This document shows, piece by piece, positions 9,193 to 35,909 of a stretch of 40,117 bases of DNA. The notes beneath the pieces are model-generated. The model saw nothing but the letters and a program-made list of their open reading frames with translations. It was not told the DNA's origin and did not search any database. How positions within the stretch are numbered: position 1 is the stretch's first letter; every line of letters starts with the position of its first letter. The position numbers and the translations under genes were made by a program. This stretch comes from Deltaproteobacteria bacterium (GTDB lineage Bacteria; Desulfobacterota; DSM-4660; Desulfatiglandales; HGW-15), in the NCBI GenBank assembly GCA_019313825.1, contig JAFDAM010000018.1, positions 1 through 40,117 of the forward strand, written 5' to 3'.

Positions 9193-9352
9193 AATTTTTC
9201 AACACTTAATTTTCAAGACCCTGTTGTTTTTTGTAAGTTGTTTTGGAACCGATGCCCCCCCCCTTATGAAATTTGACAAATAGAAGACGACAGTGAAAAG
9301 TGAAGACGCGACCCCTCTGTTTTTACGGCGTAACTACTGTCGCATCATACGA

Positions 9353-9391: not shown

Positions 9392-9413
9392 GTTTATCTC
9401 AATAGCACCATAA

Positions 9414-9909: not shown

Positions 9910-9926
9910 TTTCTCATAGGCGATAG

Positions 9927-10691: not shown

Positions 10692-10998
10692 TTTGCCCTC
10701 CTTTAAACGATTTAATGGAAAATCAGCGGTTGATTAAATAACAAAAGGCTTCTCAAGTAAATGAAACCGGTTATCATAATCACCTCAGAATCTAAGATTT
10801 TAGCCTGATGAAAGGGGGAAGGTAAATCCCGTATATTGTATTGACCCTCTCGCCCCTTAGGCTTATGCTTACTTGCCAAAGTCATATTTTGCAGTTTAAA
10901 TGATTTTTATATTGATTACAAACAATAATCCTTATTTTCCCCCTCCCAAAAACCCGTTTTATAATCTGGTAGAGGTCTGCTTCATACCTCGATACCTC

Positions 10999-11207
10999 CT
11001 ATATTCGGATCTTGCTAGCGTAAAGGCGGCCGTCCTGGCATTGGCCACAGGGACCGGGTTGTCACGGTTTCCCTTCCAGGCCAGAAGATTGAATACGGCC
11101 AGGCGGATCTAAACGATCTGAGGTCGTTACAGGCAGAGATCCAGAGGGATCTCCAGTCAGGCACTTCCACCAGGGTTTATGCCATAAAGACGAGCAAGGG
11201 GTTATGA
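10999..11207 (+). pseudogene. Phage head-tail joining protein (gpW-like), frameshifted relic
   Basis: One frame reads YSDLASVKAAVLALATGTG and a second frame then reads GQADLNDLRSLQAEIQRDL, ending SKGL and a stop. Together they give the normal order of a gpW-family protein of lambda-like phages, with a frame change near 11060-11100. The stop overlaps (TTATGA) the start of a portal-like frame, the arrangement expected in a phage head operon. No other phage gene is nearby. Confidence 0.6.
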
Positions 11208-11382
11208 GATAATCCGCATACCTGAATATCGTTGACTATAACGGCAATCCTATCCCGAGCGCCGCATTCAGCGCCGATTATGAAGGCGCCACATTTGGTA
11301 GAAGGTTGAGTACATGGGGCACATCCGCTTCCGGCCCGAACACCGCCCTTTTCGGTTCATTAAATACCTTGAGATCCCGACC
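11204..11382 (+). pseudogene. Phage portal protein (lambda-type), N-terminal relic
   Basis: From the ATG overlapping the gpW-like stop, the frame reads M-R-stop and then continues IVDYNGNPIP, SADYEGATFGRRLSTW and GPNTALFGSLNTLRSR. The GRR...W...GPN...L..LR pattern is the start of lambda-family portal proteins (full length about 500 aa). The early TAA (11210-11212) and the abrupt end at cccgacccctctg mark it as dead. Too broken to appear in the ORF track. Confidence 0.6.
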
Positions 11383-11573
11383 CCTCTGTTTTCGTTCTGG
11401 CCTCGTATCAGGGAAAAAGCCGGAAACTTGAAAACTCGAATTATTAGTTTGACATTTCATATTTTATGAATAACGGGGTCGGGGCTCGACATGGGACAAA
11501 AGGGAAGTATTGGACACCTTATATTTTAAGCAATCATCCTTCAGTCTTGCGCTGTTATATATCAAAATTTTTC

Positions 11574-11784
11574 GTAACTATTCAGGTTGTTTAGGCTGTA
11601 GGCTAAAGGCTATCTGGTTTAGGCTATAGGCTGTAGGCTATTAGTTTTTGCGCATTGATCGAAGCTGGGCACCAAAAACCTTCTCCGTCTCCATAGCCAA
11701 TTCAAACACTCTGAGCGACCTATGATCACGCATGATTCTCTCCTACAGCCTAAATGCCTACAGCCTATCTACCTGAGCAGTTAC
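11574..11784. mobile_element. 211-bp element with GTAACT...TCAGGT ends carrying a broken four-helix-bundle gene
   Basis: Left end gtaactattcaggt (11574-11587) and right end acctgagcagttac (11771-11784) are inverted with two mismatches. Inside each end lie taggctgtagg units. The interior holds the 30-codon remnant at 11641-11733. Ends plus cargo look like a decayed small mobile unit. Confidence 0.55.
11641..11733 (-). pseudogene. Four-helix-bundle protein remnant, 30 codons
   Basis: MRDHRSLRVFELAMETEK... repeats the first 13 or so residues of the family seen at 9156, then drifts and stops after 30 codons. The gagagaatc leader is shared with the first copy. The ORF is below the track cut-off. 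It lies inside the GTAACT-ended element. Confidence 0.6.
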
Positions 11785-11937
11785 TATTTATTGAAAGTGG
11801 TTGCGATTACAAAACGAGATTTTGATAAAAACTCCTTTAAGGCATAGTATCGATTTTGGCGAAGAGGTAAAAGATAGGATCATTCTCTATCCCACTAAAA
11901 GATGAGATAATATAGATACAAATATCCCTATTATTTG

Positions 11938-15638: not shown

Positions 15639-17285
15639 TCATCGCTTTATGTCTATCCATCGTATCACAGGCTTGTTGTCAACCCTTTTAACCAGTAAAA
15701 ATTTTTCAAGCAACGGGTTGGTAAACGGATAATCCGAACGGACATGCATCCCCCTGGTCTCTTTTCTTTCTTTGGCTCCGACAAACACCGTCTCCCCAAT
15801 ATCAAGAAGATCCAGCACCTCAAGACACCGCAATAACTCGTGCTGATTTTTTGCCGTCACTGTTGAAAGAGTTTTATCTTTTAATCTTTGAAGATGGCCA
15901 TAACCTGCATTCAGCAAGGTCTCTGAACGGTTCGAGCCCGCATAATCCTCCATGATCTGTTGAAGCGCTATATTTACCTCCTTCCAGTCCGGCCCGGCCT
16001 CCCTCATCCTGATATCTTCAACCATGGCCTTCTTTGCGTTTACCTCTTCTTTAGCGATATCCTTGTCGGGAGATTCCGAATCCTTGGCATACCTCACAGC
16101 ATGCTCACCTGTGAGCCACCCGTATGTGGATGCCATGGAAATCCCCATACTGGCGTAGGCCTCATCCCCAACGGAAAAAAGGCCCTTGATCGAAGTCTCT
16201 CCTTTCCCGTTATGATAGAGACCGCCTTTTGGCATCATTTCGTATGTCGCAAATTCAATCGGATTTTTTCTCAGATCGATCCGCTCGTCCTCCAAATGAT
16301 GCACAAGCGAGCTAAGGCCTTCGTTTTTAAAGAAGTACATCATATACTCATGGTCTTCATCTGAAATTCCCCGGCAGTCCATGTAAACCGGTCCTTTGCC
16401 TGATCTGTTATAGTCTTCAAATACCTTCGGATATATATCAGAGGCCACGTCTCCGTATTTTCTTTCGGGCCGGGTAACGAATGGACCAACGGGACTTCCT
16501 TGGGAATCGCGCAAAACACCAATCCAGGTCGCTTTTCCGCACCTTGCAAAATACCTCGGGCCTACCCACCGCAAGGGTATCTCCATATTGGTCAGTTCCG
16601 CCCCCGCCCTGTATGCCATGGCCGGACCATCTCCGGTAACCCCGGGGGAGTATGCCACATTAAACATGGAAGCCGGATTAGGCGCCGGGTATAACCTGAT
16701 GCAGCTGCCTGTTCCCAAAATCACGCTCCTGGCTCGAAACTCGATAAGCCTTTCCTCTCTGGTATCCGTTCCAAGGGCCCCGACCACCCTGTTTTCATCC
16801 GTGATCAGATCAAATACCATGACCCTGTTGATGATCTTTACCCCTCTTTTAAGGGCCTCTTTTGTCAGGACTTTTTTCTGGTGCTGTCCGCTGTAATGGA
16901 TGAACAGGAGTGGTTTTCCGGGATACCCATGCCCGGCGAATTCGTATCTCCCGTTATACTTCATGGGAATGCCCCAACTGTCCCACAGCTTGATGATGTC
17001 AAATGTTCTCTCCAGCCATATAGGCACAAAATCACTGTGGGTCATGCCGGCCACGAGCGACCGCTGGACCTCTTCGATAATCGGTCTGATATCAGGGCCA
17101 TGAATCTCGGGTATGTAACACATGAAATGGTCATTGCCTGCGCCACTGCTGCCGCTATACCTCGTATTGGCCTTGTCAGCCACGATGACGTCAGCCCCAA
17201 GTTCGCTTGCCCGTATGGCAGCCATCAAACCGGCTATACCTCCGCCCACACACAGAATATCTGTCCGGACCTTCTCAACGAACAT
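15639..17285 (-). CDS. AprA-like FAD-dependent flavoprotein (fumarate reductase/succinate dehydrogenase superfamily)
   Basis: An FAD Rossmann motif VGGGIAGLMAA (13-23) is followed by TRYSGSSGAGND, a flavin-contacting turn typical of AprA and fumarate-reductase flavoproteins. Mid-protein segments GDGPAMAYRAGAE and GLFSVGDEAYASMG also fit. At 548 aa it is shorter than dissimilatory APS reductase alpha (about 650), so it is probably a different dehydrogenase/reductase. There is no signal peptide. It has a strong AAAGGAGG site. A partial 4Fe-4S protein lies directly upstream, as in AprBA-type pairs; because that gene is truncated, the electron partner may be lost or supplied elsewhere. Confidence 0.85.
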   Translation of the reverse strand: MFVEKVRTDILCVGGGIAGLMAAIRASELGADVIVADKANTRYSGSSGAGNDHFMCYIPEIHGPDIRPIIEEVQRSLVAGMTHSDFVPIWLERTFDIIKLWDSWGIPMKYNGRYEFAGHGYPGKPLLFIHYSGQHQKKVLTKEALKRGVKIINRVMVFDLITDENRVVGALGTDTREERLIEFRARSVILGTGSCIRLYPAPNPASMFNVAYSPGVTGDGPAMAYRAGAELTNMEIPLRWVGPRYFARCGKATWIGVLRDSQGSPVGPFVTRPERKYGDVASDIYPKVFEDYNRSGKGPVYMDCRGISDEDHEYMMYFFKNEGLSSLVHHLEDERIDLRKNPIEFATYEMMPKGGLYHNGKGETSIKGLFSVGDEAYASMGISMASTYGWLTGEHAVRYAKDSESPDKDIAKEEVNAKKAMVEDIRMREAGPDWKEVNIALQQIMEDYAGSNRSETLLNAGYGHLQRLKDKTLSTVTAKNQHELLRCLEVLDLLDIGETVFVGAKERKETRGMHVRSDYPFTNPLLEKFLLVKRVDNKPVIRWIDIKR

Positions 17286-17525: not shown

Positions 17526-18512
17526 TTATGAAAGATGAAATAACTTTTTCGCGTTATCCTCAAATATCTTCTTCTTATCGACATCCGGGATATCCATCTC
17601 TTCAACCGATCTGATGGTTCTTCCTGTGGACCTGTCACCAAGCGCATTGTCAAACGGCATGTCGGTTCCGAACAGGATCCTGTCAACTCCAAAAAAAGCA
17701 TAACCGCACATCAAGGCGGGCGTACTTCCCGAGACCGCGGTGTCTGCATAGAACTTTCGATAATAGTCCAGTGTGACGTTACCCTCGTATCTGAACCCCT
17801 CCCTCGTCCCATAGATATCGTTTTCCGATGCGATCCTGTCTGCAAAAAAGGACACAATGGCCCCGCAATGATGGGTGATGATCTTCAGGTCGGGAAATCT
17901 TTCGAATAGACCGCTATGCACTAAACGGGTCATAGCCAGGGTAGTTTCATACGGCCAGCCGAATATCAGGAACGCCTCATATTTTGAATCGCTTTCCGTG
18001 GGGTAGTCGGATACGTTACGGCCCCTTCTGGGATGGAGAAGGATAGGGAGATCATATTGGGCCATCTTTTCAAAAAGCGGTTCAAACTCAGGGGAGTCCA
18101 GTGGTTTTCCATTGATGTCCGTATAGATCTGTATCCCTTTGAGCCCAAGATCATTGATGCTTCGATCGATCTCTTCAAGGGAGGCATCCATGTCATTAAG
18201 GGGCAAACAGGCAGCGGCCCCGACAAATCTGTCCGGATATTTATGGATCAGTTCAGCCATCTCATCATTCGCCATCTTTGATAATTCGATGGCATCCGCC
18301 GGTCCTACAAGGTCCTGTATGGGCGGCGAAACAAGGTTGATGACCTGCGCCAGCCCCTCGTATTTATCCAGAATCCGGAATCTTGCGTCCAAATCACTGA
18401 GTGTGGGAAAGTCTTTGGCGTTCTCTATGGCCTTGGAGTCCGAAGAGATCTTTTTAAATAAGGCCTTTTCGTAATTTGGTGGCATGATATGCGTGAAGAT
18501 ATCAATCATCAT
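17526..18512 (-). CDS. Amidohydrolase family 2 (ACMSD-like), copy 1
   Basis: The 328-aa TIM-barrel metal hydrolase/decarboxylase has His160 (ILLHP), His214/215 (ITHHCGA) and the late Asp in FGTDMPF, as expected metal/catalytic residues. The opening motif is IDIFTH instead of the usual HxH, so the first His is Phe6; the second copy at 22176 has the same change. Family members remove CO2 from aromatic acids or hydrolyse C-N bonds. It begins ATGATG, overlapping the end of the truncated flavoprotein, and is followed by the ferredoxin remnant. About 40% identical by eye to the second copy. Confidence 0.85.
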   Translation of the reverse strand: MMIDIFTHIMPPNYEKALFKKISSDSKAIENAKDFPTLSDLDARFRILDKYEGLAQVINLVSPPIQDLVGPADAIELSKMANDEMAELIHKYPDRFVGAAACLPLNDMDASLEEIDRSINDLGLKGIQIYTDINGKPLDSPEFEPLFEKMAQYDLPILLHPRRGRNVSDYPTESDSKYEAFLIFGWPYETTLAMTRLVHSGLFERFPDLKIITHHCGAIVSFFADRIASENDIYGTREGFRYEGNVTLDYYRKFYADTAVSGSTPALMCGYAFFGVDRILFGTDMPFDNALGDRSTGRTIRSVEEMDIPDVDKKKIFEDNAKKLFHLS

Positions 18513-18979
18513 TTTTCATATCCTCTCTGATTGAATGGAAGCTTCCATGCATGATGTGATTCGCGGAAGCTTGATCTTTTACATGCAGTCGCCTGACAGC
18601 CTATTATGATGTCCCAGAAATAAGTTGAATAATTAAATGTGAGGAAAGCAATGCCCCAGCTATCCCATATCTTCACCAACTCAAAAGACCGCTCAAGCCA
18701 GATCTGCATATAGGGAAGACCGCCAAAAAATTTCACAAGTGACCGGGAAACCTCTTTCAGTATACTTTTCGTATCATTTCCATGGTATTCGGGAATATAG
18801 CATAAGATATCGTCATTACCCATGGAGCCGCTGCCGCTCCGTCTGGTATTGCTCTTTTCAGCAACCACGATATTCTTGACACCCAGATCGGCTGCCCTTA
18901 TGGCGGCCATCAACCCTGACGGTCCACCGCCGATGATCAAGATATCTGTTTTAACGATCTCTTTTGGTATTTGCATCAC
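18509..18979 (-). pseudogene. AprA-like flavoprotein, C-terminally truncated
   Basis: Residues 1-112 parallel the N-terminus of the 15639-17285 flavoprotein: IIGGGPSGLMAAIRAADLG, NTRRSGSGSMGND, YIPEYHG, IWLERSFELVKIWDSWGI. Similarity then stops and about 40 unrelated codons lead to the amidohydrolase start. Roughly 430 residues are missing, so the product cannot bind FAD and substrate normally. The start is GTG (18979) or, more likely, the ATG at 18976. It is a paralogue, not a copy, of the intact gene. Confidence 0.8.
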
Positions 18980-19018: not shown

Positions 19019-19672
19019 CTATCCCATCCTGCTCGGAAGCCACAGGGCCAGGGCCGGCAATGCCATGATGCTCGCCATTACAAAGGCATCACATATCAGA
19101 AACGGGAAACCTGCTGTATAGATATCCCTCATTTTTGTATCAGGTGATGTTACTCCTTTCATTACAAATAGGCACATCCCAAAAGGTGGAGTCGTAGCTG
19201 CCATCTCAAGATTTAGAAGAAAGAGTACCGCAAACCACACCGGATCATAGCCAAGGGCTTTTACAATTGGTAAAAAGAGAGGTAGGGCAACCATTATTAT
19301 GGCCGCCGCCTCCATAAAGGTCCCAAGTATAAGTATGACGATCATTATAGCTATCATGATACTTATGGGTGTCACTTGAAGGCTAGTTGTGAATTCGGCA
19401 AGACCTACGGTTGCCCCCGAAATAGCCAAGAGCTGGCTAAATGCCATTGCCCCGGTCAGTATCATATAGATCATGACGGCAATCCGTGCAGTACCGTAAA
19501 GTGCATTCTTTAATGTCTTCCAATTCAGTCGTCCATAGGCTGCAGATAAGATAAAGGAGCCAAGGGCTCCGGTGGCCGCTGCCTCGGTCGGGGTGGCAAT
19601 CCCCAAAAATATTACTCCCACAACGAGGAATACAATCAATCCCAGAGGCATCACATACTTCAGGGTAGCCAT
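19019..19672 (-). CDS. dctM: TRAP transporter large permease DctM, C-terminal part (frameshifted gene)
   Basis: The 217-aa fragment has IATPTEAAATGALGSF and TPPFGMCLFVMKGV, conserved in the second half of DctM. Upstream of its ATG the same frame continues in the expected way (PLTEKL then MATLKYVMPLG), so the ATG is internal to a longer protein. The N-terminal half ends 11 bp earlier in another frame. Combined length (about 435 aa) matches intact DctM. This is either a true one-base indel or an assembly error. The protein forms the 12-helix proton/sodium-coupled channel of the TRAP importer. Confidence 0.8.
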   Translation of the reverse strand: MATLKYVMPLGLIVFLVVGVIFLGIATPTEAAATGALGSFILSAAYGRLNWKTLKNALYGTARIAVMIYMILTGAMAFSQLLAISGATVGLAEFTTSLQVTPISIMIAIMIVILILGTFMEAAAIIMVALPLFLPIVKALGYDPVWFAVLFLLNLEMAATTPPFGMCLFVMKGVTSPDTKMRDIYTAGFPFLICDAFVMASIMALPALALWLPSRMG

Positions 19673-19683
19673 GAGTTTTTCAG

Positions 19684-20331
19684 TCAGAGGGATAATGGCA
19701 CATTATATGCCGGGGCAAGGTGGGGTTGAATTGAGCATCTCAGAATTATATAGCCTCCATAGAGTAAGGTCATTATAATACCAGGGATTATAATTCCAAT
19801 TAAAATTCCCCCAATTGAGATCTCGCCCACAGCGCCTAAAAGGACAGCAAGACTACTTGGAGGAATCATAATTGCCAGACCGCCACTTCCCAGAATAGGA
19901 CCGAGACTCATTGGCTTTTTATAGCCGTGTTTCTCCATCTCCGGTACTAATGTAGATCCAAGCATTGCAACGCTGGCCATGCTGGCTCCCGTTAATGTGG
20001 AAAAAAGGGCCCCTGCTCCAAGCGCCATCAGCCCCAACCTTCCCGGTAAACGGGGCAGCCACTTCCCTATGGAATCTATTAGATTAAAGGAGATTCCTGA
20101 ATGAAACATGGTCTCTCCCATGAGTATGAACAGAGAAAGGGGTAAAAGGGTAAAGGTGGTCACAGATCCATAAATACTTACTACAAGTTGCCCTAAACCG
20201 ACTTCTCCACCCCACAATAGATATGCCCCTACTACATTCACCAGCATAAAGCAGAAGGCCACAGGCATGCCTGAAGCCATTAGCAGCAGCAGGACCACTA
20301 AAACACCAATAAGCGTATAATACCATTCCAC
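19684..20331 (-). CDS. dctM: TRAP transporter large permease DctM, N-terminal part (frameshifted gene)
   Basis: The 215-aa fragment has MASGMPVAFCFML, LFILMGETMFHSGIS and the family motif LTGASMASVAMLGS followed by IMIPPSSLAVLLG. It ends AYNVPLSL and a stop exactly where DctM should continue with PLTEKL, which is present in the next frame. The frame change lies within about 20 bp around 19690. A 67-bp gap separates it from dctQ. Confidence 0.8.
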   Translation of the reverse strand: MEWYYTLIGVLVVLLLLMASGMPVAFCFMLVNVVGAYLLWGGEVGLGQLVVSIYGSVTTFTLLPLSLFILMGETMFHSGISFNLIDSIGKWLPRLPGRLGLMALGAGALFSTLTGASMASVAMLGSTLVPEMEKHGYKKPMSLGPILGSGGLAIMIPPSSLAVLLGAVGEISIGGILIGIIIPGIIMTLLYGGYIILRCSIQPHLAPAYNVPLSL

Positions 20332-23288: not shown

Positions 23289-25502
23289 TTATTCCTTATA
23301 AATCTTGCAGAGCAATCCCCTGTTACACCAGCTGCCCACCAAAGGATCGCAGAGATCCGGGTCATCTATAGTCAGGATATTCGAATTGGACTCAAGGGCG
23401 CCGAACAGCGAAGGCGCTTCCGCCTGTTTTTCGGGGAACCACCAGCTCGCCTCTGAAGCGACCACGTCAGGGCGTATGTCTTCGGTTAAATTGGCCTTCT
23501 GTTTTATCCTGCCCCTGGCGGTCTCTATATAGACCCAGTCCCCATCCTTGATTCCATGATTCCGGGCAGTTTCAGGGTGGATATGCACCAGAGGATCGGG
23601 GTGCTTCTCTCTATGTCCTATCCCGAGCTGCCTGTGCTCGGAATGAAACATGGGCATGAATTTAATACCCGTCGTCAGTACGAGGGGATATTGTTCAAGA
23701 AGCTCCGGTGTTCTAACGGGGCTCTCCGGAGGTTCCTCATAATATGGAAGGGGGTCGTAACCCAACCTTTCAAATATAGTGGAATAGAGCTCCACCTTGC
23801 CCGTGGGCGTGGAAAAGCCTGTCTTTTCATACTTGCGAAATTCAGGTTCCGGCAGCAAACCGCCCCTGTCGATAAACTCCTCATAACTGATTCCCAAACG
23901 GCTTATGCGATATTCTGCGACCTCTTCAAGAGTCTCCCAAGGCCAGTATCCTTTCTGCCCCAGTCTCAAGCCCAGCTCCTTCCAGAAAAGATAGTCATCC
24001 CTTCGCTCCCCCAGAGGTTCAACAGATCTCTCCCCTGCCCAGGCCAGATCGGACCAGTCCTCGAAGGTGGTGCAAAGCGGCCTTTCAAGCCAGCTTGCAG
24101 AAGGCAGTACATAATCAGCCAGTTGGGCCGTAGGGGTCATCCAATATTCCAAAACCACATGCAGTTCCAGATTGGGATGGGTCAAAGCCTCATGAACCAG
24201 TTTGGTATTAGCCGCCCACATCATGGGGTTGCTGGCCCACGATATCATGGCCTTTATGGGATAAGGTTTCTCATCAATAATCGCGCGAATGGCCAGGGGC
24301 ATGGATACCAGAAGAGGGTGGTGCTGAGGATGAGATACCCCATAATGCTTTTTAAAATACTTGTCCAGAATCTCCCAACCGGGAAATGTCATCAATTTAT
24401 ATCGGTCTGCACCGATCTGCTTTTGTCTCTGCTCTGGCGGACATTTTTCAGCGAGTTCCAATTCCGAATCACAAACAAAACTCCCGCCGTTCATCTTAAA
24501 GGCCGGCCCTGTGACAGGATTGCCGCCCGGCACATCCATGTTCCCTGTTATGGCCTTCAAAATAACTCTTGCCTGTTCCACCCTTGTTGCGTTAAGTCCG
24601 ATCTGGTCCGTGGCCACGCCGCGATCGATACAGGCAGGTTTTGTTGTTGCATAAAGTCTTGCGGATTCGACGATCTCCTCTTTGGTCAACCCGGTAATCT
24701 CCGCAACCTTCCGGGGTGTATACGCCTTAACCCTTTCTCTAAGCTCATTAAATCCGTGGGTCCATTTATCAACAAAATCCTTATCATATAGATTCTCTTC
24801 AATGATGACGTTAATCCACCCCAATGCCAGTGCCGCATCCGTCCCGGGCCTCAACTGAAGACACATGTCGGCATGCTTGGCTGTCTTGGTTTTTATGGGA
24901 TCAATGACTATGGTCTTGACATCCTTATTACGGATTCTTCCCCTGAGTATCCTCCACCGGGTAAGGAACGTCTCAACATGGTTTCCTCCCCACAGTACGG
25001 CACACTTTGTATTAAAAAGGTCTGAGATAATATTCACAGAACCTATAAGGGCCAGATTGATCGTGTAGCAGTTCATGCTGCAGATAATCCCGGGGCACGT
25101 TATGTTCTGCGGATTGCCAAAGAGATTCAGAAAACGTGTCCTGGCCCAAAAATGATCGCTTCTATAAGTGCCTTCTGTTACCATCAGGGTTTCTGCACCA
25201 TAATCCTCCTTTAGTTGCGCCAGCTTTGAAGCGATCTCATCAAGGGCCTGGTCCCATGATATTCGCTCCCATTTTCCCTCGCCCCGTTTTCCTGCGCGCT
25301 TAAGGGGGTATTTCAGCTGTTCAGGATGATATAGCCATTTGGGCGCCTTTGTCCCTCGCGCGCAAATGTAACCACTGCTGATCGGATGATCCCTGTTCCC
25401 TTCCACTTTAACAACCTTGCCATCCTGGACATGGACGAGAAGTCCACAATTATTATGACAAAAGTGACAACCTGCTTTTTTTACCTCTGTTCTAGAAGCC
25501 AT
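23289..25502 (-). CDS. Molybdopterin (Mo/W bis-MGD) oxidoreductase 1, acetylene-hydratase-like
   Basis: The 737-aa DMSO-reductase-superfamily enzyme has N-terminal 4Fe-4S ligands Cys12, Cys15, Cys19 and Cys47. Cys141 (GIICSMN) lies where a metal-ligating Cys is expected. RISWDQALDEI, MTPTAQLADYVLPSASWLERP and a C-terminal MGD-binding domain are present. Layout and length follow acetylene hydratase and its many uncharacterised relatives. No Tat signal, so cytoplasmic. Residue 16, after the second Cys, is His, whereas acetylene hydratase has the catalytic Asp there, so acetylene hydration is not predicted. GAGG Shine-Dalgarno. Confidence 0.88.
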   Translation of the reverse strand: MASRTEVKKAGCHFCHNNCGLLVHVQDGKVVKVEGNRDHPISSGYICARGTKAPKWLYHPEQLKYPLKRAGKRGEGKWERISWDQALDEIASKLAQLKEDYGAETLMVTEGTYRSDHFWARTRFLNLFGNPQNITCPGIICSMNCYTINLALIGSVNIISDLFNTKCAVLWGGNHVETFLTRWRILRGRIRNKDVKTIVIDPIKTKTAKHADMCLQLRPGTDAALALGWINVIIEENLYDKDFVDKWTHGFNELRERVKAYTPRKVAEITGLTKEEIVESARLYATTKPACIDRGVATDQIGLNATRVEQARVILKAITGNMDVPGGNPVTGPAFKMNGGSFVCDSELELAEKCPPEQRQKQIGADRYKLMTFPGWEILDKYFKKHYGVSHPQHHPLLVSMPLAIRAIIDEKPYPIKAMISWASNPMMWAANTKLVHEALTHPNLELHVVLEYWMTPTAQLADYVLPSASWLERPLCTTFEDWSDLAWAGERSVEPLGERRDDYLFWKELGLRLGQKGYWPWETLEEVAEYRISRLGISYEEFIDRGGLLPEPEFRKYEKTGFSTPTGKVELYSTIFERLGYDPLPYYEEPPESPVRTPELLEQYPLVLTTGIKFMPMFHSEHRQLGIGHREKHPDPLVHIHPETARNHGIKDGDWVYIETARGRIKQKANLTEDIRPDVVASEASWWFPEKQAEAPSLFGALESNSNILTIDDPDLCDPLVGSWCNRGLLCKIYKE

Positions 25503-25634: not shown

Positions 25635-26330
25635 CTATCTTCCTGTGACGCCGAGATACTTGCCCTTTGCCTCTACATCATCTTTTAACTCATCAGGCGT
25701 GGATTCATATACTATTAATCCCTTGCTTGTTATGTAGACGTAATCAGCCGCTTTCAAGGCGAAGGGCGGATTTTGCTCTACAAGCAGGATGGGGATTCTT
25801 CTCTTCTTAAGCCTGTTAATGACCTTTCCCACCTCCTTTACTATTATGGGTGCCAATCCCTCTGACGGTTCATCCAGCAACATAAGTTTCGGCTCCGAGG
25901 CAAGGCTGAAGGCGATCTCCAGCTTCCTTTGCTCTCCGTAGGATATATCTTGCGCCAAGTCTTCTCTCTTCTCCCATAAGGCCATTGTTTCCAACAATTT
26001 TTGGGCCTTAGTAATATGGTCATCATAGGAGGTTATTGATCGGAACATATGAAAGCGAGAAGGCTTAAGAACATGAACGGCCGGCTGCATATTATCAAGA
26101 ACGGTCAGGGTAGGGAAAAGCGTGTTCATCTGGAAGGACCGGGCCTGGCCAAGGTGTGCCCGGCGCTGTGTGCTTATATTAGTAATATCCTGATTGAAAA
26201 GATATATCCTTCCATCCGAAGCTTTAAATTGCCCGTTCAGCAAATTAAATAGAGTGGTTTTTCCAGCCCCGTTGGGACCGATGATCGCCAACTTCTCTCC
26301 GATCTCCACACTAAAGGAGACATCCTGCAC
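25635..26330 (-). CDS. Branched-chain-amino-acid-type ABC ATPase, LivG-LivF hybrid with 5' frameshift
   Basis: Walker A GPNGAGKTTLFN, LGQARSFQMNTLFPTLTVLDN and ISYGEQRKLEIA are LivG features. From LLDEPSEGLAPIIV onward, through ILLVEQNPPFALKAADYVY and SKGLIVYE to KYLGV, the sequence is of LivF type. No separate livF exists in the window. The track start (GTG) is internal: ATGs at 26392/26386 overlap the end of livM and encode EALKVAYLSKNFGG, but a single-base shift in the ggcggcgggg run puts them out of frame. The product would power the LivHM permease. Confidence 0.75.
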   Translation of the reverse strand: MQDVSFSVEIGEKLAIIGPNGAGKTTLFNLLNGQFKASDGRIYLFNQDITNISTQRRAHLGQARSFQMNTLFPTLTVLDNMQPAVHVLKPSRFHMFRSITSYDDHITKAQKLLETMALWEKREDLAQDISYGEQRKLEIAFSLASEPKLMLLDEPSEGLAPIIVKEVGKVINRLKKRRIPILLVEQNPPFALKAADYVYITSKGLIVYESTPDELKDDVEAKGKYLGVTGR

Positions 26331-26354
26331 CGCCTGACCCCGCCGCCGAAGTTT

Positions 26355-27374
26355 TTAGAGAGGTACGCAACCTTTAACGCTTCCATACCCATTAATCACC
26401 TTTTCCCAGAGTCTAACTAAGTGGATGCCGATACCTCCGCGAAGAAACATAACCGCTATTACAAAAACGGCCCCTAAGAGCATAGGCCATCGCGCCGGCA
26501 TATACAGACTGGCAAAGTATTCTAAAAGCACTATTACAATAGCGCCAATTATGGGGCCAAAGAACATTCTGGTGCCTCCGATTATTACCATAAGGAGCAC
26601 CACAGTCGACATGGCAACACCGGTATGATCCGGATGAAACACTCCCAGATATTGGCTGAATAACATGCCGGCAATACCTGCGAATATGCCTGCAATAATG
26701 AAGGCGATATATTTGTATAGCCAAGTATTGTAGCCCAGACAGCGCATTCTTGGCTCCTGATCCCGAACGCCCTGCAGGGCGTAACCAAAGGGAGATTTTA
26801 CTATTAGATATAAGAGGATATAGCAGATGATAAGCACAAACAGCACAAAGAAACAGAAATATGTGGCGTTCCATGTAAATCCAGGGAGACCAAGATTGGG
26901 GAGTGCTATACCTATTATTCCATCAGAACCCTGGGTCATTGACCGCCACTTTACTGCAACATAATAGACCAATCGCCCCAGGGCCAGTGTGACCAGCAAG
27001 AAGTATACACCTGTTACCCTGAGAGCTACGATGCCGAAAGCCGCAGCCACAAGCCCTGTGGCCAAGATACTGAGGGGCCCGCTCACCCAGAAGCTTTCAA
27101 TCCCATATCGCGTTACCAGAATTGCATAGACGTACCCCCCTATTCCGAAGTAAGCCGCATGGCCTAATGATGTAAGCCCCGTATATCCCCAGATAAGATT
27201 CAGACTCATGGCAAAGATAGCAAAAACAAAAACCTTGGTTATCATAGTCTGAAGATAGGTGGGTACCAGCAGAGGGAACATTGTAAACAGCAGCAGACCG
27301 AAAATATAAGGGAGAAGGCGAACAAGCTGTTCTTGTGATGACCGTTTTATTGGTTCCAGGGCTATTCCTCCCAT
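26355..27374 (-). CDS. livM: Branched-chain-type ABC transporter permease LivM
   Basis: The 339-aa protein has about 9-10 membrane helices. AMSLNLIWGYTGLTSLGHAAYFGIGGY is the LivM signature, and GVRDQEPRMRCLGYNT is the EAA-like loop that touches the ATPase. GGTRMFFGPIIGA completes the pattern. Its 3' end overlaps the true livG start by about 37 bp. It imports amino acids or other small carboxyl/amide compounds across the inner membrane together with LivH. Confidence 0.9.
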   Translation of the reverse strand: MGGIALEPIKRSSQEQLVRLLPYIFGLLLFTMFPLLVPTYLQTMITKVFVFAIFAMSLNLIWGYTGLTSLGHAAYFGIGGYVYAILVTRYGIESFWVSGPLSILATGLVAAAFGIVALRVTGVYFLLVTLALGRLVYYVAVKWRSMTQGSDGIIGIALPNLGLPGFTWNATYFCFFVLFVLIICYILLYLIVKSPFGYALQGVRDQEPRMRCLGYNTWLYKYIAFIIAGIFAGIAGMLFSQYLGVFHPDHTGVAMSTVVLLMVIIGGTRMFFGPIIGAIVIVLLEYFASLYMPARWPMLLGAVFVIAVMFLRGGIGIHLVRLWEKVINGYGSVKGCVPL

Positions 27375-27558: not shown

Positions 27559-28419
27559 TCAAGCCATAGTTCGCCCCATCAGTCCGGTGGGTCTGAACAA
27601 TAACATTATTATAAGCACAATATAGATAGTAAATGAGGCCAGGTCCGGAATAAATGCCTTGCCAAGTGCATCGATCATCCCTATCACTAAGGCGCCAATC
27701 AGGGTCCCAAGCACGGAACCGGGCCCCCCTACTACGACCACGATCAGTGCATAGAGTAAGACCTCCATGGGCATGGAGAAGATGAAACTCATCATGGGAG
27801 TGCCGATAGCACCGGAAAATCCTCCTGCGAAGGCACCCAAGGCAAAAACAGCACCATATATCAACTCGTGGTTAATACCCAGGCCCCTTGTCATCTCGTT
27901 ATCGTCCATTCCCGCCCGGACAATTGCCCCGATCCGCGTCCTGTCAATCAACCACCACAGTCCAATAAATGCGATTAAACCAACAGCTATGACCCCAAGG
28001 CGATACCCAGGAAAGCTCCGCCCTCCGATATCTACGGTAAAAGCCATGAAAGGCGGGGGGTTGGTCATCCTACCATGCCCCCCGTATATCCAGAGAATCA
28101 CGTTTTCAAAAATATAGACAAGGCCAAGGGTCAGCAATACCTGGTCATCAAGTCGATTGTAGATACGGCGCAGGAATAATCTCTCAATCACCAGGCCGAT
28201 CAAGCCCGCAGCGATACTTCCCGATAAGACAGCTACCAAGAAGTTACCGCCGGCACCAACAACAGTATACCCAATAAAGCCGCCGACCATGAACATTGCC
28301 CCATGGGTCAGATTAAGAATACCCATTAGCCCAAGGGTCAATGAAAAGCCCATGGATAAAAGAAAAAGTATCATCCCGAATGAGATCCCGTTTAATAAAT
28401 GTATCGCCATCAGGGACAT
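27559..28419 (-). CDS. livH: Branched-chain-type ABC transporter permease LivH
   Basis: The 286-aa protein from the ATG at 28419 is preferred over the track's TTG at 28437, because GGGAG lies 6 nt before this ATG. NGISFGMILFLLSMGFSLTLGLMGILNLTHGAMFM is the LivH signature, and GINHELIYGAVFALGAFAGG the cytoplasmic loop. About 8 membrane helices. It partners LivM. A 139-bp gap (28420-28509 plus the repeat region downstream) shows no other gene. Confidence 0.9.
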   Translation of the reverse strand: MSLMAIHLLNGISFGMILFLLSMGFSLTLGLMGILNLTHGAMFMVGGFIGYTVVGAGGNFLVAVLSGSIAAGLIGLVIERLFLRRIYNRLDDQVLLTLGLVYIFENVILWIYGGHGRMTNPPPFMAFTVDIGGRSFPGYRLGVIAVGLIAFIGLWWLIDRTRIGAIVRAGMDDNEMTRGLGINHELIYGAVFALGAFAGGFSGAIGTPMMSFIFSMPMEVLLYALIVVVVGGPGSVLGTLIGALVIGMIDALGKAFIPDLASFTIYIVLIIMLLFRPTGLMGRTMA

Positions 28420-28509
28420 CTTATTCTCCCACTCCAAAACTTTTCCACGCCTGAAAAACGCTATCTCTCAAGTTACTGCCCCCAATTACGTAAAAGCACA
28501 AAATGGGGA

Positions 28510-29733
28510 CTACTTCTTTGCTGCTCCTTTTATATCGTCAGGTTCACGAGCTTCCACCTGTTCATAAGTGAAAATGTCCTTATAACGATAAAAATCACCT
28601 TCTTTGATAATCCTGAGGATATAGCTGTTTGCGATTATAAGACCTTCATTTGTAAAGGATACAGGCCCCCAAGGAGTTTCAAACTTCGTCTTTTTCAATG
28701 TATCGTTGAGTACCTTCTTTGAAGTATTGCCCCCTGCGGCTTTGATGGCCTGTAAAGCTATTGACACCGAATTATATGCTGTTGCACCTTCCGCCTGGTA
28801 AGGGTGTTTTCCTTCTTTCTCACTTAAGTGGCCATATTGCTTCATCCATCGATCCCTCCAAGCCGCTGAACCTGAAGTATCTATACCTGCCTCGTATGCA
28901 TTGATAGCGATTATACCTAAACAGTTGTCACCTATCTCTTTCATGCTCATTGAGCCGAGGGTCGGGTCACCTGAAATAACAAGGGGCATTTTCATGCCAT
29001 AGGCATAGTACTGTTTTACAAATTGGACATTGTGGTGAGGCACCATCCAATATAAAACTACATCTGCATCTTTCATGGAAGAAAGATACGGTCCATAGTC
29101 CATTGTATCCATGGGCGCTCTTATTCGCTGAACGATCTTGCCTCCCCGGCTTACAAAGGCATCCATGGCGCCATCGGCAAAGTCCTCCCCTGAAGCAAAG
29201 TCATCATGAATTACAACAGCCGTTCTTGCTCCCATTTTATCATAGGCATAATAACCAAGCGGATAGCTTCGGCCACGGAGTGTTCCTTTGGGAAGATACA
29301 CATTTCCGCCACCGAGTCGAAGCATCTCTATACGGCCCTCAGCCACAAACAGGAATGGTATTCCGATACCTTTAAGATAAGACGCAACTGCTGAAGCGGC
29401 ATGAGAAGTTATGGGGCCTATAACAACATGGACCTTGTCGGCCTCAACCATCTTTCTGGCCTTATCCACCGCAGTTGCAGGTGCGCTCCCGGAATCCTCT
29501 ATGATCAGTTTTATGGGCCTGCCGGCAATTTCCCATCCGAATTCCTCGCAAGCCAGCTTTGCCGCATTAACCATCCATGGATTTTCAAGTGAACTCATGC
29601 CGGTATAACACGCCAGGAACCCCACTTTGATGGGCTCGGCGGCGGCTGTTGTTGAAGGTAATGATACCACAGGCAATACTGTTAAAAAAAACACCAAAGA
29701 AAGTCCAATCAATATTGTAGATATTCTCTTCAT
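28510..29733 (-). CDS. ABC transporter periplasmic substrate-binding protein (LivK-like)
   Basis: The 407-aa protein starts at the ATG at 29733, 8 nt after AGGAGG; the track's TTG at 29739 is too close to that site. A signal peptide (KRISTILIGLSLVFFLTVLP, to about residue 33) is followed by the type I binding-protein fold: KVGFLACYTGMSS, DSGSAPATAVDKARKMVEADKVHVVIGP. Ligands of this family include amino acids, amides, urea and aromatic acids, so specificity is open. It leads the Liv operon and is preceded by about 320 bp without a gene. Confidence 0.88.
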   Translation of the reverse strand: MKRISTILIGLSLVFFLTVLPVVSLPSTTAAAEPIKVGFLACYTGMSSLENPWMVNAAKLACEEFGWEIAGRPIKLIIEDSGSAPATAVDKARKMVEADKVHVVIGPITSHAASAVASYLKGIGIPFLFVAEGRIEMLRLGGGNVYLPKGTLRGRSYPLGYYAYDKMGARTAVVIHDDFASGEDFADGAMDAFVSRGGKIVQRIRAPMDTMDYGPYLSSMKDADVVLYWMVPHHNVQFVKQYYAYGMKMPLVISGDPTLGSMSMKEIGDNCLGIIAINAYEAGIDTSGSAAWRDRWMKQYGHLSEKEGKHPYQAEGATAYNSVSIALQAIKAAGGNTSKKVLNDTLKKTKFETPWGPVSFTNEGLIIANSYILRIIKEGDFYRYKDIFTYEQVEAREPDDIKGAAKK

Positions 29734-30060
29734 GTCCAAAGCCTCCTTTCTAAAGGTTCCATCATGCTCGGCATTACAGGCCTTCTCGAGCTTATCTTTA
29801 GTGATCTTTTCTGTCTCTCACCTCCCTTCCTATCTCTATTCATTGGCTTTTAAATGATTCTTGCACATACAATCTACTCTCAATAAATCAGGGGGGCAAA
29901 CATGAAGTTAGTGAGAAAAAATATCTCCCCCTGCGCCTTAAGTCTTGTGCCTTGTCAAAGATCCCGATTTGTCGGGGCGCCACTTGGCATCCCTGATCTG
30001 ATTACTAAAAAAGAGTTATGCCGTGCCTATCAGTGTATGGCCCCTTCACGCATTCTCACC

Positions 30061-32205
30061 CTATGCCTTATAGACCCTGCACAATAACGACCTTAAGGGA
30101 TTGCAGCTCATGGCCTCGTCAGCCTCCACCCAGTCCGTCAACACATTGATATTGGACTCCCACACGCCGTGCAGACTGGGCTCCGCCTCCTTATCCTCCG
30201 GGAACCACCAACCATGCTGCGCATGTACGACTCGGGGATCAAGCCCTGTTGTAAATTTAGCTCTCTGCTTTACCCTGCCTCTTGGCGATTCGATCCAAAC
30301 CCAATCCCCATCATTGATCGCAAGGCCATTTGCGGTTTCGGGATGAATCTCGATAATTGGGTCAGGGTTAAGTTTTCTTAGATTTTCTATCTGTCTGAAT
30401 TCGGAATGGAAAAAGCCTTTAATCCTGCCGCCGGTAGTGAGAACCAGGGGGAATTCTTTTGCCAATTCGGGCGAACTTATCGGGCTTTCCGGAGGTTCTT
30501 TGTGGTGTGGCAAGGGATCGTAGCCCAGGCTCTCCATAACATTGGAATAAAGCTCGAATTTTTTAGAGGGGGTTGAGAAGCCCACCTTCTCATACTTCTT
30601 GTATTTAAAAGAGTGCGGCAGGGACGCAAATCCCTTTTCCCTCATATCATCAAAGGTTATCCCGGCGGGCTTGAGTGATTCAGCCATATAACCTTCAACA
30701 TCAGAGGGATCGCTTTCTCCCAGCCTCTTTCCCAGTTCACAGTATATCCACCAATCGCTCCTACGTTCATCAATCTGCTCAACGGCCTTTTGACGAATCC
30801 CATACCCCCAATCACACTGGTTTAGATGGATTTCATCCTTTTCCAACCACATGGCGGCCGGAAGTACGATATCCGCCAGCTCCGCGGTAGGAGTCATATA
30901 AAGCTCGCTTATTGCCATGAATTCCACTTTCTTCAAGGCTTCATAGACCTTTTTTGTATTGGCGGCGCATACCATGGGATTATACCCGCTATAAAACAGT
31001 ACTCTCAACGGATAAGGTTTTCCGGTTATTATTGAGTTCAAAGCTATGGCAGGAATCATGGGCCAGAAGCCGGAGGTAATCAGTTTAAACTGATCGCTGG
31101 TCAGACGCTTCTTGACCATTTCAGGAGAAAGCCTGTCGTGGAGTTCAAGATAGCTGGTGGTGCCTTTCACTGTCCTGTCACAGACAACGTTTCCACCCGG
31201 GATATCAAAATTGTCTGTCAGGCCGATCATGCACAAGAGGGCTCTAATGGTCTGGGTGGTGCTCACAAGCTGTTCAATGGCTACGCCGGGATGGAGGATC
31301 GCGGGCTTTGAAGTCGCATACATCCTGGCCGCTTTTATAATCTTTTCGGAAGGAACCCAAGTGATCTCAGCGACTTTTTCAGGAGGGTACTCCTGCACCC
31401 TTTCCTTTAGCTGCTCAAAACCGAAGGTCCATTTTTCCACAAACTCCTTGTCATACAGCTCCTCATTGATGATGACATTAAGCATGCCCAACGCCAGCGC
31501 CGCATCGGCGCCAGGTCTTACCTTTAGCCATAAATGCGCTTTTGAAGCCTCCTCCGTATACCTGGGATCGACCACTATGAGCTTTTTTACTTTTTTTATG
31601 GCATCTCTAAAACCCACGGCGCATGGGTGGGGAGAATCATCACTGGTAAAAGATGCCTGACTCCCCCAGGAGAGGATGCACTCAGGGATAACATCATAAG
31701 GATAATACATCCTTGGAAACCAGCCTGCTTCAAAATGACCGCCCGCTGTGATTTCCAGGGTCCGTACTTTTGGCACATAGCAGACATGTCCTTCAGAGAA
31801 ATAGTTTGGTGTACCGATGATATTTGCCAGCCTGTAGAGTTGTGACATGATGTTCCGATCTGTTCCCACACCAACGGCTATAGCCTCAGGACCGTGCTCC
31901 TCCCTGACCTCTTTCATTTTATCTGCTATCGTGTCCAAAGCCTCATCCCAGCTTATTCTCTCCCACTTGCCTTCACCCCGCTCACCAGCTCTCTTCATGG
32001 GAAACCCTAATCGATCAGGATGGTAAAGATGATATGCGGATGAAAGCCCTTTAATGCACAGCTTCCCTTTGCTAATAGGGTGCTCTGGGTTGCCTTCAAT
32101 CTTGACCACCTTGCCTTCTTTCACATGAACCAACGCGCCGCATCCCCCGTGATCCATGCGGCAGGTAGATTTGAGTATGGTCGTATCTGATTTTTTTTCG
32201 TTCAT
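30061..32205 (-). CDS. Molybdopterin (Mo/W bis-MGD) oxidoreductase 2, Cys-to-Asp Fe-S variant
   Basis: The 714-aa enzyme has the same domain order as oxidoreductase 1: RISWDEALDTI, VCYVPK with Cys142 as likely metal ligand, MTPTAELADIVLPAAMWLEKD, and a C-terminal MGD domain ending CNPLRSLLCRVYKA. The N-terminal cluster motif is Cys15-x2-Asp18-x3-Cys22 with Cys50, so the second cluster ligand is Asp (codon GAT, two changes from any Cys codon). No Tat signal. Strong GAGGAGG site. It lies 32 bp after the Mo-hydroxylase large subunit, probably in one operon. The reaction is unknown. Confidence 0.88.
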   Translation of the reverse strand: MNEKKSDTTILKSTCRMDHGGCGALVHVKEGKVVKIEGNPEHPISKGKLCIKGLSSAYHLYHPDRLGFPMKRAGERGEGKWERISWDEALDTIADKMKEVREEHGPEAIAVGVGTDRNIMSQLYRLANIIGTPNYFSEGHVCYVPKVRTLEITAGGHFEAGWFPRMYYPYDVIPECILSWGSQASFTSDDSPHPCAVGFRDAIKKVKKLIVVDPRYTEEASKAHLWLKVRPGADAALALGMLNVIINEELYDKEFVEKWTFGFEQLKERVQEYPPEKVAEITWVPSEKIIKAARMYATSKPAILHPGVAIEQLVSTTQTIRALLCMIGLTDNFDIPGGNVVCDRTVKGTTSYLELHDRLSPEMVKKRLTSDQFKLITSGFWPMIPAIALNSIITGKPYPLRVLFYSGYNPMVCAANTKKVYEALKKVEFMAISELYMTPTAELADIVLPAAMWLEKDEIHLNQCDWGYGIRQKAVEQIDERRSDWWIYCELGKRLGESDPSDVEGYMAESLKPAGITFDDMREKGFASLPHSFKYKKYEKVGFSTPSKKFELYSNVMESLGYDPLPHHKEPPESPISSPELAKEFPLVLTTGGRIKGFFHSEFRQIENLRKLNPDPIIEIHPETANGLAINDGDWVWIESPRGRVKQRAKFTTGLDPRVVHAQHGWWFPEDKEAEPSLHGVWESNINVLTDWVEADEAMSCNPLRSLLCRVYKA

Positions 32206-32237
32206 TGTTTTTTCCTCCTCGTTCTTTAATTTTGGGA

Positions 32238-34529
32238 TCAGATCTTCTCTCTTTTCGCTTCCATTGACTTGAGTATCTTTTCAGGCGTTATTGGTAAATC
32301 CGTAACCCTGACACCTACAGCATCATAGACAGCATTTGCAATGGCCGGAGCAATGGGAACCATAGCTGCCTCTCCGACCCCCTTGGCGCCGAACGGACCG
32401 GTTGAAACAGGTTTTTCGTACTGTATGATCTCCATATCCGGCATATCTGCTGCTCCGGGAATCTTGTAGGTAATATAATTGTCGGCTTCAAGGTAACCAG
32501 TCTCAGGATTAATCGTGTAGTCCTCTGTTAAGGCATAACCGATACCCTGTGAAGCGCCTCCCTCAAGCTGACTCTCAACGGTTTGAGGGTTTATAGCCCT
32601 TCCCACATCGCAAACAATCACTAGTTTTATGACATTTACTTCGCCGGACTCAGTATCTACCCCCACTTCCGCAAAGCTTGCCCCCACAGGCGGCTGATTA
32701 TCTTCCGGTGAATACGACCCTTTGGCAGCCAAATGGTTGTGATCATCTTCGTAATTATAGATGGCATCCTTTGCCACGTCAGCCACAGACACCCCTTTAT
32801 CCGGGGACCCTTTCACACTGATCCACCTGTCTTTCACATCCAGGTCTTCGGGATGCGCTTCAAGCATCTTGGCCGCTCTTTCAAATAGCAGCTTTTTAAG
32901 CTCTGTCGCACCTTTTACGGTAGCGTTCCCAATCTGAAAAAGGCCGCCGCTGGCGTGCATCCCTTGATCGAAAAAGGTTGTATCCGTATCACCCGTATGG
33001 ATAATAATATCTTCATAACGAATCCCAAGTGTCTCTGCAGCGATCTGCGAAATAGTACCATGTATGTTCTGCCCTAAATCCACACACCCTGCAGCCAGGT
33101 TGACTGTCCCGTCTTCGTTAAATTTCAAATGCACATTTCTGTGCTGAGTAGCCCCAATGGAACCTGAAACATGCATAAACATGGCCATCCCGACCCCATA
33201 ACGTTTAGTCCCCTCCCTTCTTCCGCCTCTTTTCTCTTTCAAGCCGATTTTTTCTGCTCCCAGCCTAAGACAATCATCAAAGGTGGACGTCTCAAGGGCA
33301 TAATTGGCAGGGCCGAATTCGCCCACTTTCTTTGTATTTTTCAGTCGTAGCTCCAGGGGATCCATCCCCAGTTTCTCGGCGGCCATGTCCATAAGCTGCT
33401 CAAGCGCCCACATGGCAGGCGGATTGCCATACCCCCTGCAGCCTCCCGAGACCGGGATGTTGGTGTAAACAGCATCTGCAATTTCATATACGTTGGGACA
33501 AGTATAGAGACTGGCAAAGCATCCCATGGCCACGTTTGTGGCATTGGAGTTATGAGTAAAATAAGCGCCGCCTTGAACTACAACCTTGTTTTGGAGTGCG
33601 CTTATGGTGCCGTCTTTCCGCACTCCAATCTTGCCGGTCATGATATGAGCTTCTCTGGTCTCGGTCGTACGAAAGTCCTCCTCTCTCGAATACTCAAGCT
33701 TCACGGGCCTGCCCGCCTTTTTCGCCAAGGCGACACAGACAGGCTCAGCAACAAAGCTGCCGTATTTCCCCCAGCCCCCGCCAATATGAAGCGTTTTCCA
33801 CCTGATCATTCCCACAGGCATATCGAACAATTCCGCGAGTTTTCTCCTATGGAGAAAGGGATGCTGGCTCATGGACCAGATGGTTAATCTCCCCGAGGCA
33901 TCAAAGTCTGCCACACAGGTAGTCGGTTCCATCTGGCACATGTGTTGTTTAGAGGATTTGAAGGTCTGTTCAACCACAACATGGGCTTCCTTAAAACCCT
34001 CTTCCACGTCACCCCTGTTTGCAAGACAAGGGAAGGTCAAGGCAATATTGTTTTTGGCAAAATCATGAATCCTCGGCTGACCGGGGTTCGATGCTTCAAG
34101 AGAATCAAACACCGCAGGCAGTTCTTCATATTCCACCTCTATCAACACAAGGGCCTCTTCTGCAACGCCCGCATTGATTGCCGCAACGGCGGCTATCTTG
34201 TCTCCGACAAAGCGGGCCTTATCGCTCAAAACATACATATCCGGGAGCTCACCTGAGGGATCAAAGAGGCACATGTCCATCTTGTTCGGATTAAAAAGTT
34301 TATTGGGCACATCCTCAAAGGTGATGACAGCTTCAACTCCGGGAAGTTTTTCAGCTCTTGATGTATCGATCTTCAATATGTTGGCATGTGCAACCGGGCT
34401 GGTTAACAGCCTGCCTGCCAGCATTTCAGGTAGTTTAAAATCCACCGTGAAACGAGCTGCACCGGTCGCCTTCTCAAAGGCCGCCCACCGAGGAACTTTT
34501 TTCCCTACAATGGTTAATTCTTCACCCAT
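32238..34529 (-). CDS. Xanthine dehydrogenase-family molybdenum hydroxylase, large (Mo) subunit
   Basis: The 763-aa protein starts at the ATG at 34529, led by GGGGGGAGG and 1 bp after the small-subunit stop; the track start 17 codons upstream lies inside that gene. Motifs are KATGAARFTVD, HIGGGWGKYGS (249-258), GGCRGYGNPPA and, near the C-terminus, PFGAKGVGEAAM with the catalytic Glu. The CO-dehydrogenase active-site loop is absent. Family members hydroxylate N-heterocycles, aldehydes or hydroxybenzoyl-CoA using water. The substrate here is not determined. Operon order is FAD, 2Fe-2S, Mo subunit. Confidence 0.9.
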   Translation of the reverse strand: MGEELTIVGKKVPRWAAFEKATGAARFTVDFKLPEMLAGRLLTSPVAHANILKIDTSRAEKLPGVEAVITFEDVPNKLFNPNKMDMCLFDPSGELPDMYVLSDKARFVGDKIAAVAAINAGVAEEALVLIEVEYEELPAVFDSLEASNPGQPRIHDFAKNNIALTFPCLANRGDVEEGFKEAHVVVEQTFKSSKQHMCQMEPTTCVADFDASGRLTIWSMSQHPFLHRRKLAELFDMPVGMIRWKTLHIGGGWGKYGSFVAEPVCVALAKKAGRPVKLEYSREEDFRTTETREAHIMTGKIGVRKDGTISALQNKVVVQGGAYFTHNSNATNVAMGCFASLYTCPNVYEIADAVYTNIPVSGGCRGYGNPPAMWALEQLMDMAAEKLGMDPLELRLKNTKKVGEFGPANYALETSTFDDCLRLGAEKIGLKEKRGGRREGTKRYGVGMAMFMHVSGSIGATQHRNVHLKFNEDGTVNLAAGCVDLGQNIHGTISQIAAETLGIRYEDIIIHTGDTDTTFFDQGMHASGGLFQIGNATVKGATELKKLLFERAAKMLEAHPEDLDVKDRWISVKGSPDKGVSVADVAKDAIYNYEDDHNHLAAKGSYSPEDNQPPVGASFAEVGVDTESGEVNVIKLVIVCDVGRAINPQTVESQLEGGASQGIGYALTEDYTINPETGYLEADNYITYKIPGAADMPDMEIIQYEKPVSTGPFGAKGVGEAAMVPIAPAIANAVYDAVGVRVTDLPITPEKILKSMEAKREKI

Positions 34530-34530
34530 C

Positions 34531-35016
34531 TTACCTCCCCCCTTCCTTCCCCATACTCTCAGCCGCCGCCAAAATACCATCCACTATCTTTACATATCCG
34601 GTACAGCGGCACAGATTGCCCCCGATGCCTTCTTTAACCTCCTGCTCCGTGGGATCGGGATTTTCATCCAGCAGCGCCTTTGTCATCATTATCATCCCGG
34701 GAGTGCAAAAACCGCACTGGATAGCCCCATGGTCTATGAATGCCTGCTGAATGGGATGTAAACCCTCGCGTGTTGCCAAGCTTTCTATTGTCAATATATC
34801 CTTTTCCCTAACAGCTATGGCCAAGGTCGAACAAGAAAGAGTAGGTTTGCCATCAATCAGGACGGTGCAGGACCCGCATTCGCCTACCCCACAGGCGCAT
34901 TTTGTACCTGTAAGATCCAACTGCTCTCTCAACAGCTCCGCCAGAGTTACATTCGACTCTACTAAAAGTTCATAGGGCCTATCATTAATTGTAAATTTAG
35001 CGATCTCTTTTTTCAT
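34531..35016 (-). CDS. Molybdenum hydroxylase 2Fe-2S subunit (CoxS-like)
   Basis: The 161-aa protein has plant-type cluster ligands Cys42, Cys47, Cys50 and Cys62 (CGVGECGSC) and a second 2Fe-2S set Cys101, Cys104, Cys136 and Cys138 (CGFCTPG, NLCRCTGY). This is the complete two-cluster electron relay of the xanthine-oxidase family. A GGAGGAGGG site precedes the start, and it lies 20 bp after the FAD-subunit gene. Confidence 0.93.
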   Translation of the reverse strand: MKKEIAKFTINDRPYELLVESNVTLAELLREQLDLTGTKCACGVGECGSCTVLIDGKPTLSCSTLAIAVREKDILTIESLATREGLHPIQQAFIDHGAIQCGFCTPGMIMMTKALLDENPDPTEQEVKEGIGGNLCRCTGYVKIVDGILAAAESMGKEGGR

Positions 35017-35036
35017 AATGCTTTACCCTCCTCCCC

Positions 35037-35909
35037 TTATGCCTTTGCCCTTTCCAAGGTCTTGTTTAGTGCCCGTTTCACCAGAATCCCAGCAGCCTCC
35101 TTCCTGTATTCGGCTGTAGAGCGAAGGTCGGTAATAGGTTTTGTCTCTTGGGATGCTGCCTGGGATGCCGCTTCAATTACATCTTGATCAAGTTCCCGGC
35201 CATTAAGAAGGGCCTCTGCCTTCTTTGCCCTGAATACGGTCGGCGCAACAGCGCCCAGAGCAATCCTGGCCTGCTTACAAATACCATCCGTAATTGTTAT
35301 CCATACTGCCACGCAAACCTTGGAAATATCAGCCCTGGTCCTCACCAGATGCTGGTATGAACCTCTCGTTCCGGGCATGACACTGGGCAAGATCACTTCG
35401 GTGACCATATCTCCCGGCTCCAGAACAGTTTGCCCTACTCCAATATAGAAATCTTCAATGGGCAGAATCTTTTCACCGGATGTGTTAACGATTTTCAGTT
35501 CTGCATCCAAAGCCAGCAGACTTGTCGCCATATCGGATGCCGGCGTCCCCACACAGAGGTTTCCAACCATGGTGCCCATACTCTTGACCTGATGTGAGGG
35601 CAGTTGATGGGCAGCCTCATACAGAATGGAATAATCTTTCCGAATAACGGGTGAAAGCTCGATGGAGCGAATAGTAGTAAGGGCACCGAATCTTAAACCA
35701 TCGCCGCCGTTACCATCGATATAGTCCAGGCCCTGTATCTTTTTTATATTCAGTATGAAGGCCGGCTTGATTTTACGGTGCCTCAATCTCGGCATAATGT
35801 CTACGCCACCGGCAAGTAGTTTCCCCTTGTCGGCATAATCGGAAAGAAGACTTACTGCTTCTTCAATCGTCGCCGGTTCAACGTACTCAAAAGGCTTTAG
35901 ACTTTGCAT
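35037..35909 (-). CDS. Molybdenum hydroxylase FAD-binding subunit (CoxM-like)
   Basis: The 290-aa protein has the FAD motifs LLAGGVDIMPRLR (about 33-45) and GTMVGNLCVGTPASDM (about 112-127) of the CoxM/XdhB family. There is no extra 4Fe-4S insertion of the kind found in 4-hydroxybenzoyl-CoA reductase, which argues against that enzyme. It is the first gene of the minus-strand run and faces the sigma54 activator across 770 bp of repeat-containing DNA. Confidence 0.9.
   Translation of the reverse strand: MQSLKPFEYVEPATIEEAVSLLSDYADKGKLLAGGVDIMPRLRHRKIKPAFILNIKKIQGLDYIDGNGGDGLRFGALTTIRSIELSPVIRKDYSILYEAAHQLPSHQVKSMGTMVGNLCVGTPASDMATSLLALDAELKIVNTSGEKILPIEDFYIGVGQTVLEPGDMVTEVILPSVMPGTRGSYQHLVRTRADISKVCVAVWITITDGICKQARIALGAVAPTVFRAKKAEALLNGRELDQDVIEAASQAASQETKPITDLRSTAEYRKEAAGILVKRALNKTLERAKA

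Follow-up and report, generated by a model that had tools for sequence, protein, structure and literature searches.

A livG-livF hybrid ATPase gene in a probably decayed Liv importer operon of an uncultured deltaproteobacterium

The Liv operon and its surroundings

The window, meaning the whole stretch of DNA that was analysed (40,117 nucleotides; contig JAFDAM010000018.1, positions 1 to 40,117), comes from the assembled genome of an uncultured Deltaproteobacteria bacterium (GCA_019313825.1; 158 contigs, 64.6% complete). On its minus strand livK, livH and livM are followed by a single ATPase ORF and then by a molybdopterin oxidoreductase. The features of the locus are as follows.

28510..29739, minus strand: livK-type substrate-binding protein, intact (ORF; PF13458, 2e-57)
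27559..28437, minus strand: livH-type permease, intact (ORF; PF02653, 4.8e-36)
26355..27374, minus strand: livM-type permease, intact (ORF; PF02653, 4.7e-43; 57% identity to the livM of L121)
26331..26392, minus strand: former livG 5' end (MGMEALKVAYLSKNFGG...), out of frame with the remainder, with a frameshift at ~26335-26355 (three-frame translation; intact relatives read through)
25635..26330, minus strand: hybrid ABC ATPase ORF of 231 aa, sole start candidate GTG (ORF, translation, comparison)
25875..26330, minus strand: LivG-derived part of this ORF, residues 1-152, which contains Walker A and the signature SYGEQ
25867..25876, minus strand: junction TGGATGAACC, covering the end of L152, D153, E154 and the start of P155, a stretch common to the livG and livF genes of relatives
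25635..25874, minus strand: LivF-derived part, which spans residues 153-231 and contains EPSEGLAP and VEQN
23289-25502, minus strand: molybdopterin oxidoreductase, the next gene after the hybrid ORF (ORF list)

No lesions were seen in livK, livH or livM. The presence in one operon of a periplasmic binding protein (PF13458) and two BPD_transp_2 permeases (PF02653 in both) is that of a HAAT importer. Such importers have two ATPases in the operon, LivG and LivF, and relatives carry both; here the hybrid ORF stands alone. As the original prediction held, the operon lacks a separate livF downstream of this ORF, where the molybdopterin oxidoreductase is found. The further statement that the hybrid is the only Liv ATPase holds for the operon but not for the genome, in which contigs C25 and C57 carry other Liv-type ATPase pairs. 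Within the 64.6% of the genome that is represented there is no second strong match to the hybrid, the next best having 32-34% identity.

Upstream of livK, at 30061-35909 on the minus strand, are genes for a three-subunit enzyme of the xanthine dehydrogenase type and for a molybdopterin oxidoreductase. Liv operons also lie near xanthine-dehydrogenase-type genes at L103 and L121. This proximity of molybdenum genes to Liv operons hints at a substrate that is not an amino acid. 'Liv' is used here as a family name, and the molybdenum enzymes, amidohydrolases and sigma-54 regulator in the neighbourhood suggest a different substrate, perhaps, as a guess, an aromatic or heterocyclic compound.

A LivG front and a LivF back in one ORF

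In the sequence as given the hybrid is real. The ORF changes from LivG-like to LivF-like at LLDEPS|EGLAP, and three lines of comparison (identities, separating sites and trees) agree with the predicted division into a LivG-like front and a LivF-like back. In comparisons with relatives of the same order that carry adjacent livG and livF genes, the pair of genome G038 (L019) gives identities of 58% (LivG) and 29% (LivF) for residues 1-150, and of 27% (LivG) and 64% (LivF) for residues 151-231. The split recurs across 14 livG/livF pairs. Separating sites were defined as the 29 positions at which the majority residue differs between ten LivG and ten LivF rows, and genuine LivG and LivF rows are almost uniform at these sites. 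The hybrid matches LivG over LivF 18:0 before residue 153 and LivF over LivG 6:0 after the junction (Fisher p 7e-6 for the two sides together).

Placed separately in trees, the two parts do not fall into one family. The front part lies within LivG (100/100, and 100/99 for the sub-clade that holds it); the back part lies within LivF (100/100). AU tests rejected trees in which the nearest LivFs were forced to group with the front (p 5e-6) or the nearest LivGs with the back (p 2e-4); a looser test, in which the ORF was moved only across the branch between LivG and LivF, gave no rejection (p 0.08 and 0.09). The highest-ranking NCBIfam models are UrtD and LivG for the front part, and for the back part UrtE and LivF. 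For the whole ORF the best models are LptB, UrtD, LivG and UrtE, with similar scores and none near its cut-off.

The ORF is thus neither a LivG nor a LivF over its whole length. It resembles the LivG of syntenic livKHMGF operons (HAAT importers, e.g. L019, L020 and L022) in residues 1-152, including Walker A, the Q-loop region and SYGEQ, and it occupies the place of LivG directly after livM. It differs from that protein in its LivF-type back third, in its out-of-frame 5' end and in the residue at the switch position, which is Gln (residue 186, in VEQN) instead of the switch His. In residues 153-231 it resembles the LivF of the same operons, sharing EPSEGLAP, VEQN and the C-terminal end, but its front two thirds are those of LivG and the canonical SGGEQ signature is absent. 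An origin of the ORF from two unrelated pieces was discarded: the same operon is the nearest to either part, at similar distances, and the other LivF and LivG proteins of the genome are much further away.

The junction and a frameshift at the 5' end

The crossover score is maximal, and flat, across residues 152-155, the L-D-E-P of the Walker-B motif. At this point the livG and livF genes of relatives share 4-10 identical bases in register, with all ten (TGGAYGARCC) shared in five of 11. In the six nearest relatives the Walker-B motifs of the two genes are 697-710 bp apart. The order livK-H-M-G-F with separate livG and livF occurs in G038, G052, G011 and G012, and in G052 and G012 the syntenic operon has close to it the same xanthine-dehydrogenase-type genes that occur in the window. 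Together, the syntenic relatives with both genes, the part-by-part matches and the shared junction stretch bear out the proposal of a deletion between adjacent livG and livF at Walker-B.

The hybrid can be explained by a deletion of ~0.7 kb between the short identical Walker-B stretches of livG and livF in an ancestral livKHMGF operon, which would have left the first two thirds of livG running on in frame into the last third of livF. Deletions between short repeats occur in bacteria. A possible route is slippage between such repeats at replication, although both this mechanism and the order in which the lesions arose are presumed.

The original prediction treated 25635-26392 as one ORF, which does not hold: this interval is 758 nt long, not a multiple of three. 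The ATG at 26392 is real and opens MGMEALKVAYLSKNFGG, with which the LivG of relatives usually begins, but it lies in another frame. In the ATPase frame there is a stop a few codons upstream (in the region of 26355-26357, at the end of the livM frame), leaving the GTG at 26330 as the sole start candidate. The first ~17 LivG codons are cut off by a frameshift near 26335-26355, and this would be a separate event near the former livG 5' end that removed the normal start. Because the frameshift adds to the fusion, the gene carries two lesions. Compared with the intact syntenic relatives its frame is disrupted and a segment is missing, as in a pseudogene formed by deletion.

ATP-site motifs

Motifs were tallied on an alignment of 66 relatives, because a tally by regular expressions had yielded some doubtful combinations. 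The signature is non-SGG (SYG, SHG, AYG or similar) in each of the 33 LivG rows, and each of them also has the switch His. All 32 LivF rows have SGG, and in nearly all of them Gln replaces the switch His. This complementary motif loss is seen across the livG/livF pairs of relatives L019-L047. The hybrid combines the non-canonical LivG signature SYGEQ with the LivF switch Gln, a pairing of LivG-type signature and LivF-type Gln that occurs in one chain in none of the 66 aligned relatives. Walker A, Walker B and the other parts of the fold are intact.

Each ATP site of an ABC transporter is built from the Walker motifs and switch of one chain and the signature of the other (PMC7756269). Given the motif sets of LivG and LivF, each pair should therefore form one canonical site, from LivG and the LivF signature, and one degenerate site, from LivF and the LivG signature. 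The hybrid joins the LivG signature to the LivF Gln, so both sites of a homodimer would be degenerate. In ABC exporters, hydrolysis is strongly impaired by sites of this kind (PMC7756269), and the switch His of LptB (H195) is essential (PMC6703430); by analogy, these rules may carry over to Liv ATPases. LptB, the homodimeric ATPase of LPS export, is the nearest well-studied single-ATPase relative of the hybrid and its best match among solved structures. LptB rows have SGG and the switch His in the same chain (SGGER and His in the genome's own copy), whereas the hybrid has neither. The product of the hybrid gene would be an ABC domain with both motifs non-canonical and with no partner ATPase, and the importer is predicted to lack coupling of ATP hydrolysis to uptake, a probable loss of function. 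The first strand is missing from the hybrid, which makes function less likely still.

Distribution among genomes

A DNA pattern specific for the junction matched the genome itself, as a positive control, and was not found elsewhere in 85 genomes of the order or 395 of the phylum. A short-peptide search of named genomes returned distant homologues only, a plasmid search gave best matches of only ~40% identity, and the searches brought up no genome of the same genus. No described livG-livF fusion was found in the literature.

Decay of the operon and alternative explanations

Two other broken genes lie at most 8 kb from the hybrid. A frameshift between 19681 and 19690 splits the large permease of a TRAP transporter (DctM type; 19019-20331, minus strand) into two ORFs, 19684-20331 and 19019-19672; the single 413-aa protein of a relative spans both. 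A flavoprotein remnant (18509-18979, minus strand) is 56% identical over its first ~106 residues to an intact paralogue at 15639-17285, after which it has an unrelated tail; about 440 residues are missing. Elsewhere in the window, stretches of 1-2 kb at 4170-6087, 8817-9926 and 10692-11934 contain no main ORF of 150 aa or more.

The favoured reading, with a probability of roughly 0.7, is a decayed Liv importer in which a deletion fused livG to livF and a frameshift removed the start, in an operon decaying beside two broken genes. An artefact of assembly or amplification is a distinctly less likely account, though the strongest of the others: the organism would possess intact livG and livF, the interval between the Walker-B motifs having been skipped and the 5' indel being an error. 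The fragmented, incomplete state of the genome speaks for it, and sequencing errors could account for the frameshift as well as for the split TRAP permease. Against it, a junction repeat of 4-10 bp, as found in relatives, is below the usual word lengths of assemblers, and the assembly does not look error-ridden in general. In a survey of the window and 384 kb sampled from the rest of the genome, frame breaks affected only three of 66 well-covered genes, so that local decay is favoured over a generally error-ridden assembly, on a small sample of 66 genes. These three include the window's split TRAP gene, and in at least one of the remaining two an antisense ORF appears to have caused a false alarm. 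We infer that the lesions are present in the organism and do not stem from assembly alone.

The original prediction left the choice between a broken importer and a natural single-ATPase Liv system. The broken importer is favoured because of the frameshift, the loss of the canonical ATP-site combinations and the absence of the hybrid from every other sampled genome. What counts against decay is that the fusion is in frame and the fold motifs are intact, so a product is conceivable, and that livK, livH and livM carry no lesion; the looser AU test without rejection also weighs on that side. A natural importer, using a homodimer of the hybrid or pairing it with an ATPase from one of the genome's other Liv systems, would also fit the same structural position of the junction, the intact livK, livH and livM, the further Liv-type ATPases on C25 and C57 and the existence of homodimeric relatives such as LptB. 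With the start removed and both homodimer sites predicted to be degenerate, it appears improbable. Slightly more doubtful still is an expressed hybrid that works as a homodimer with both ATP sites of the normally degenerate kind; if true, it would be a one-step natural conversion of a two-ATPase into a single-ATPase Liv importer. The similar whole-ORF NCBIfam scores could also point to a separate ATPase subfamily with a naturally LivG-like front and LivF-like back that arose without recombination. The two parts fall in different clades, each beside genes of the same operon, and the switch at the separating sites is clean. A natural mosaic subfamily was ruled out, for the sampled genomes, by the absence of the junction from all the others and of the motif combination from the aligned relatives, and the likelihood left to this explanation is minimal.

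Implications

As a case of gene decay the locus is ordinary; its value is as a clean natural case in which two tandem ATPase genes have recombined at a motif that they share. It also carries a warning for annotation, which would list a Liv importer here although the operon is probably dead. The motifs suggest a division of labour in these Liv importers, in which the switch histidine is predicted to come from LivG and the canonical signature from LivF, such that a single fusion would remove both.
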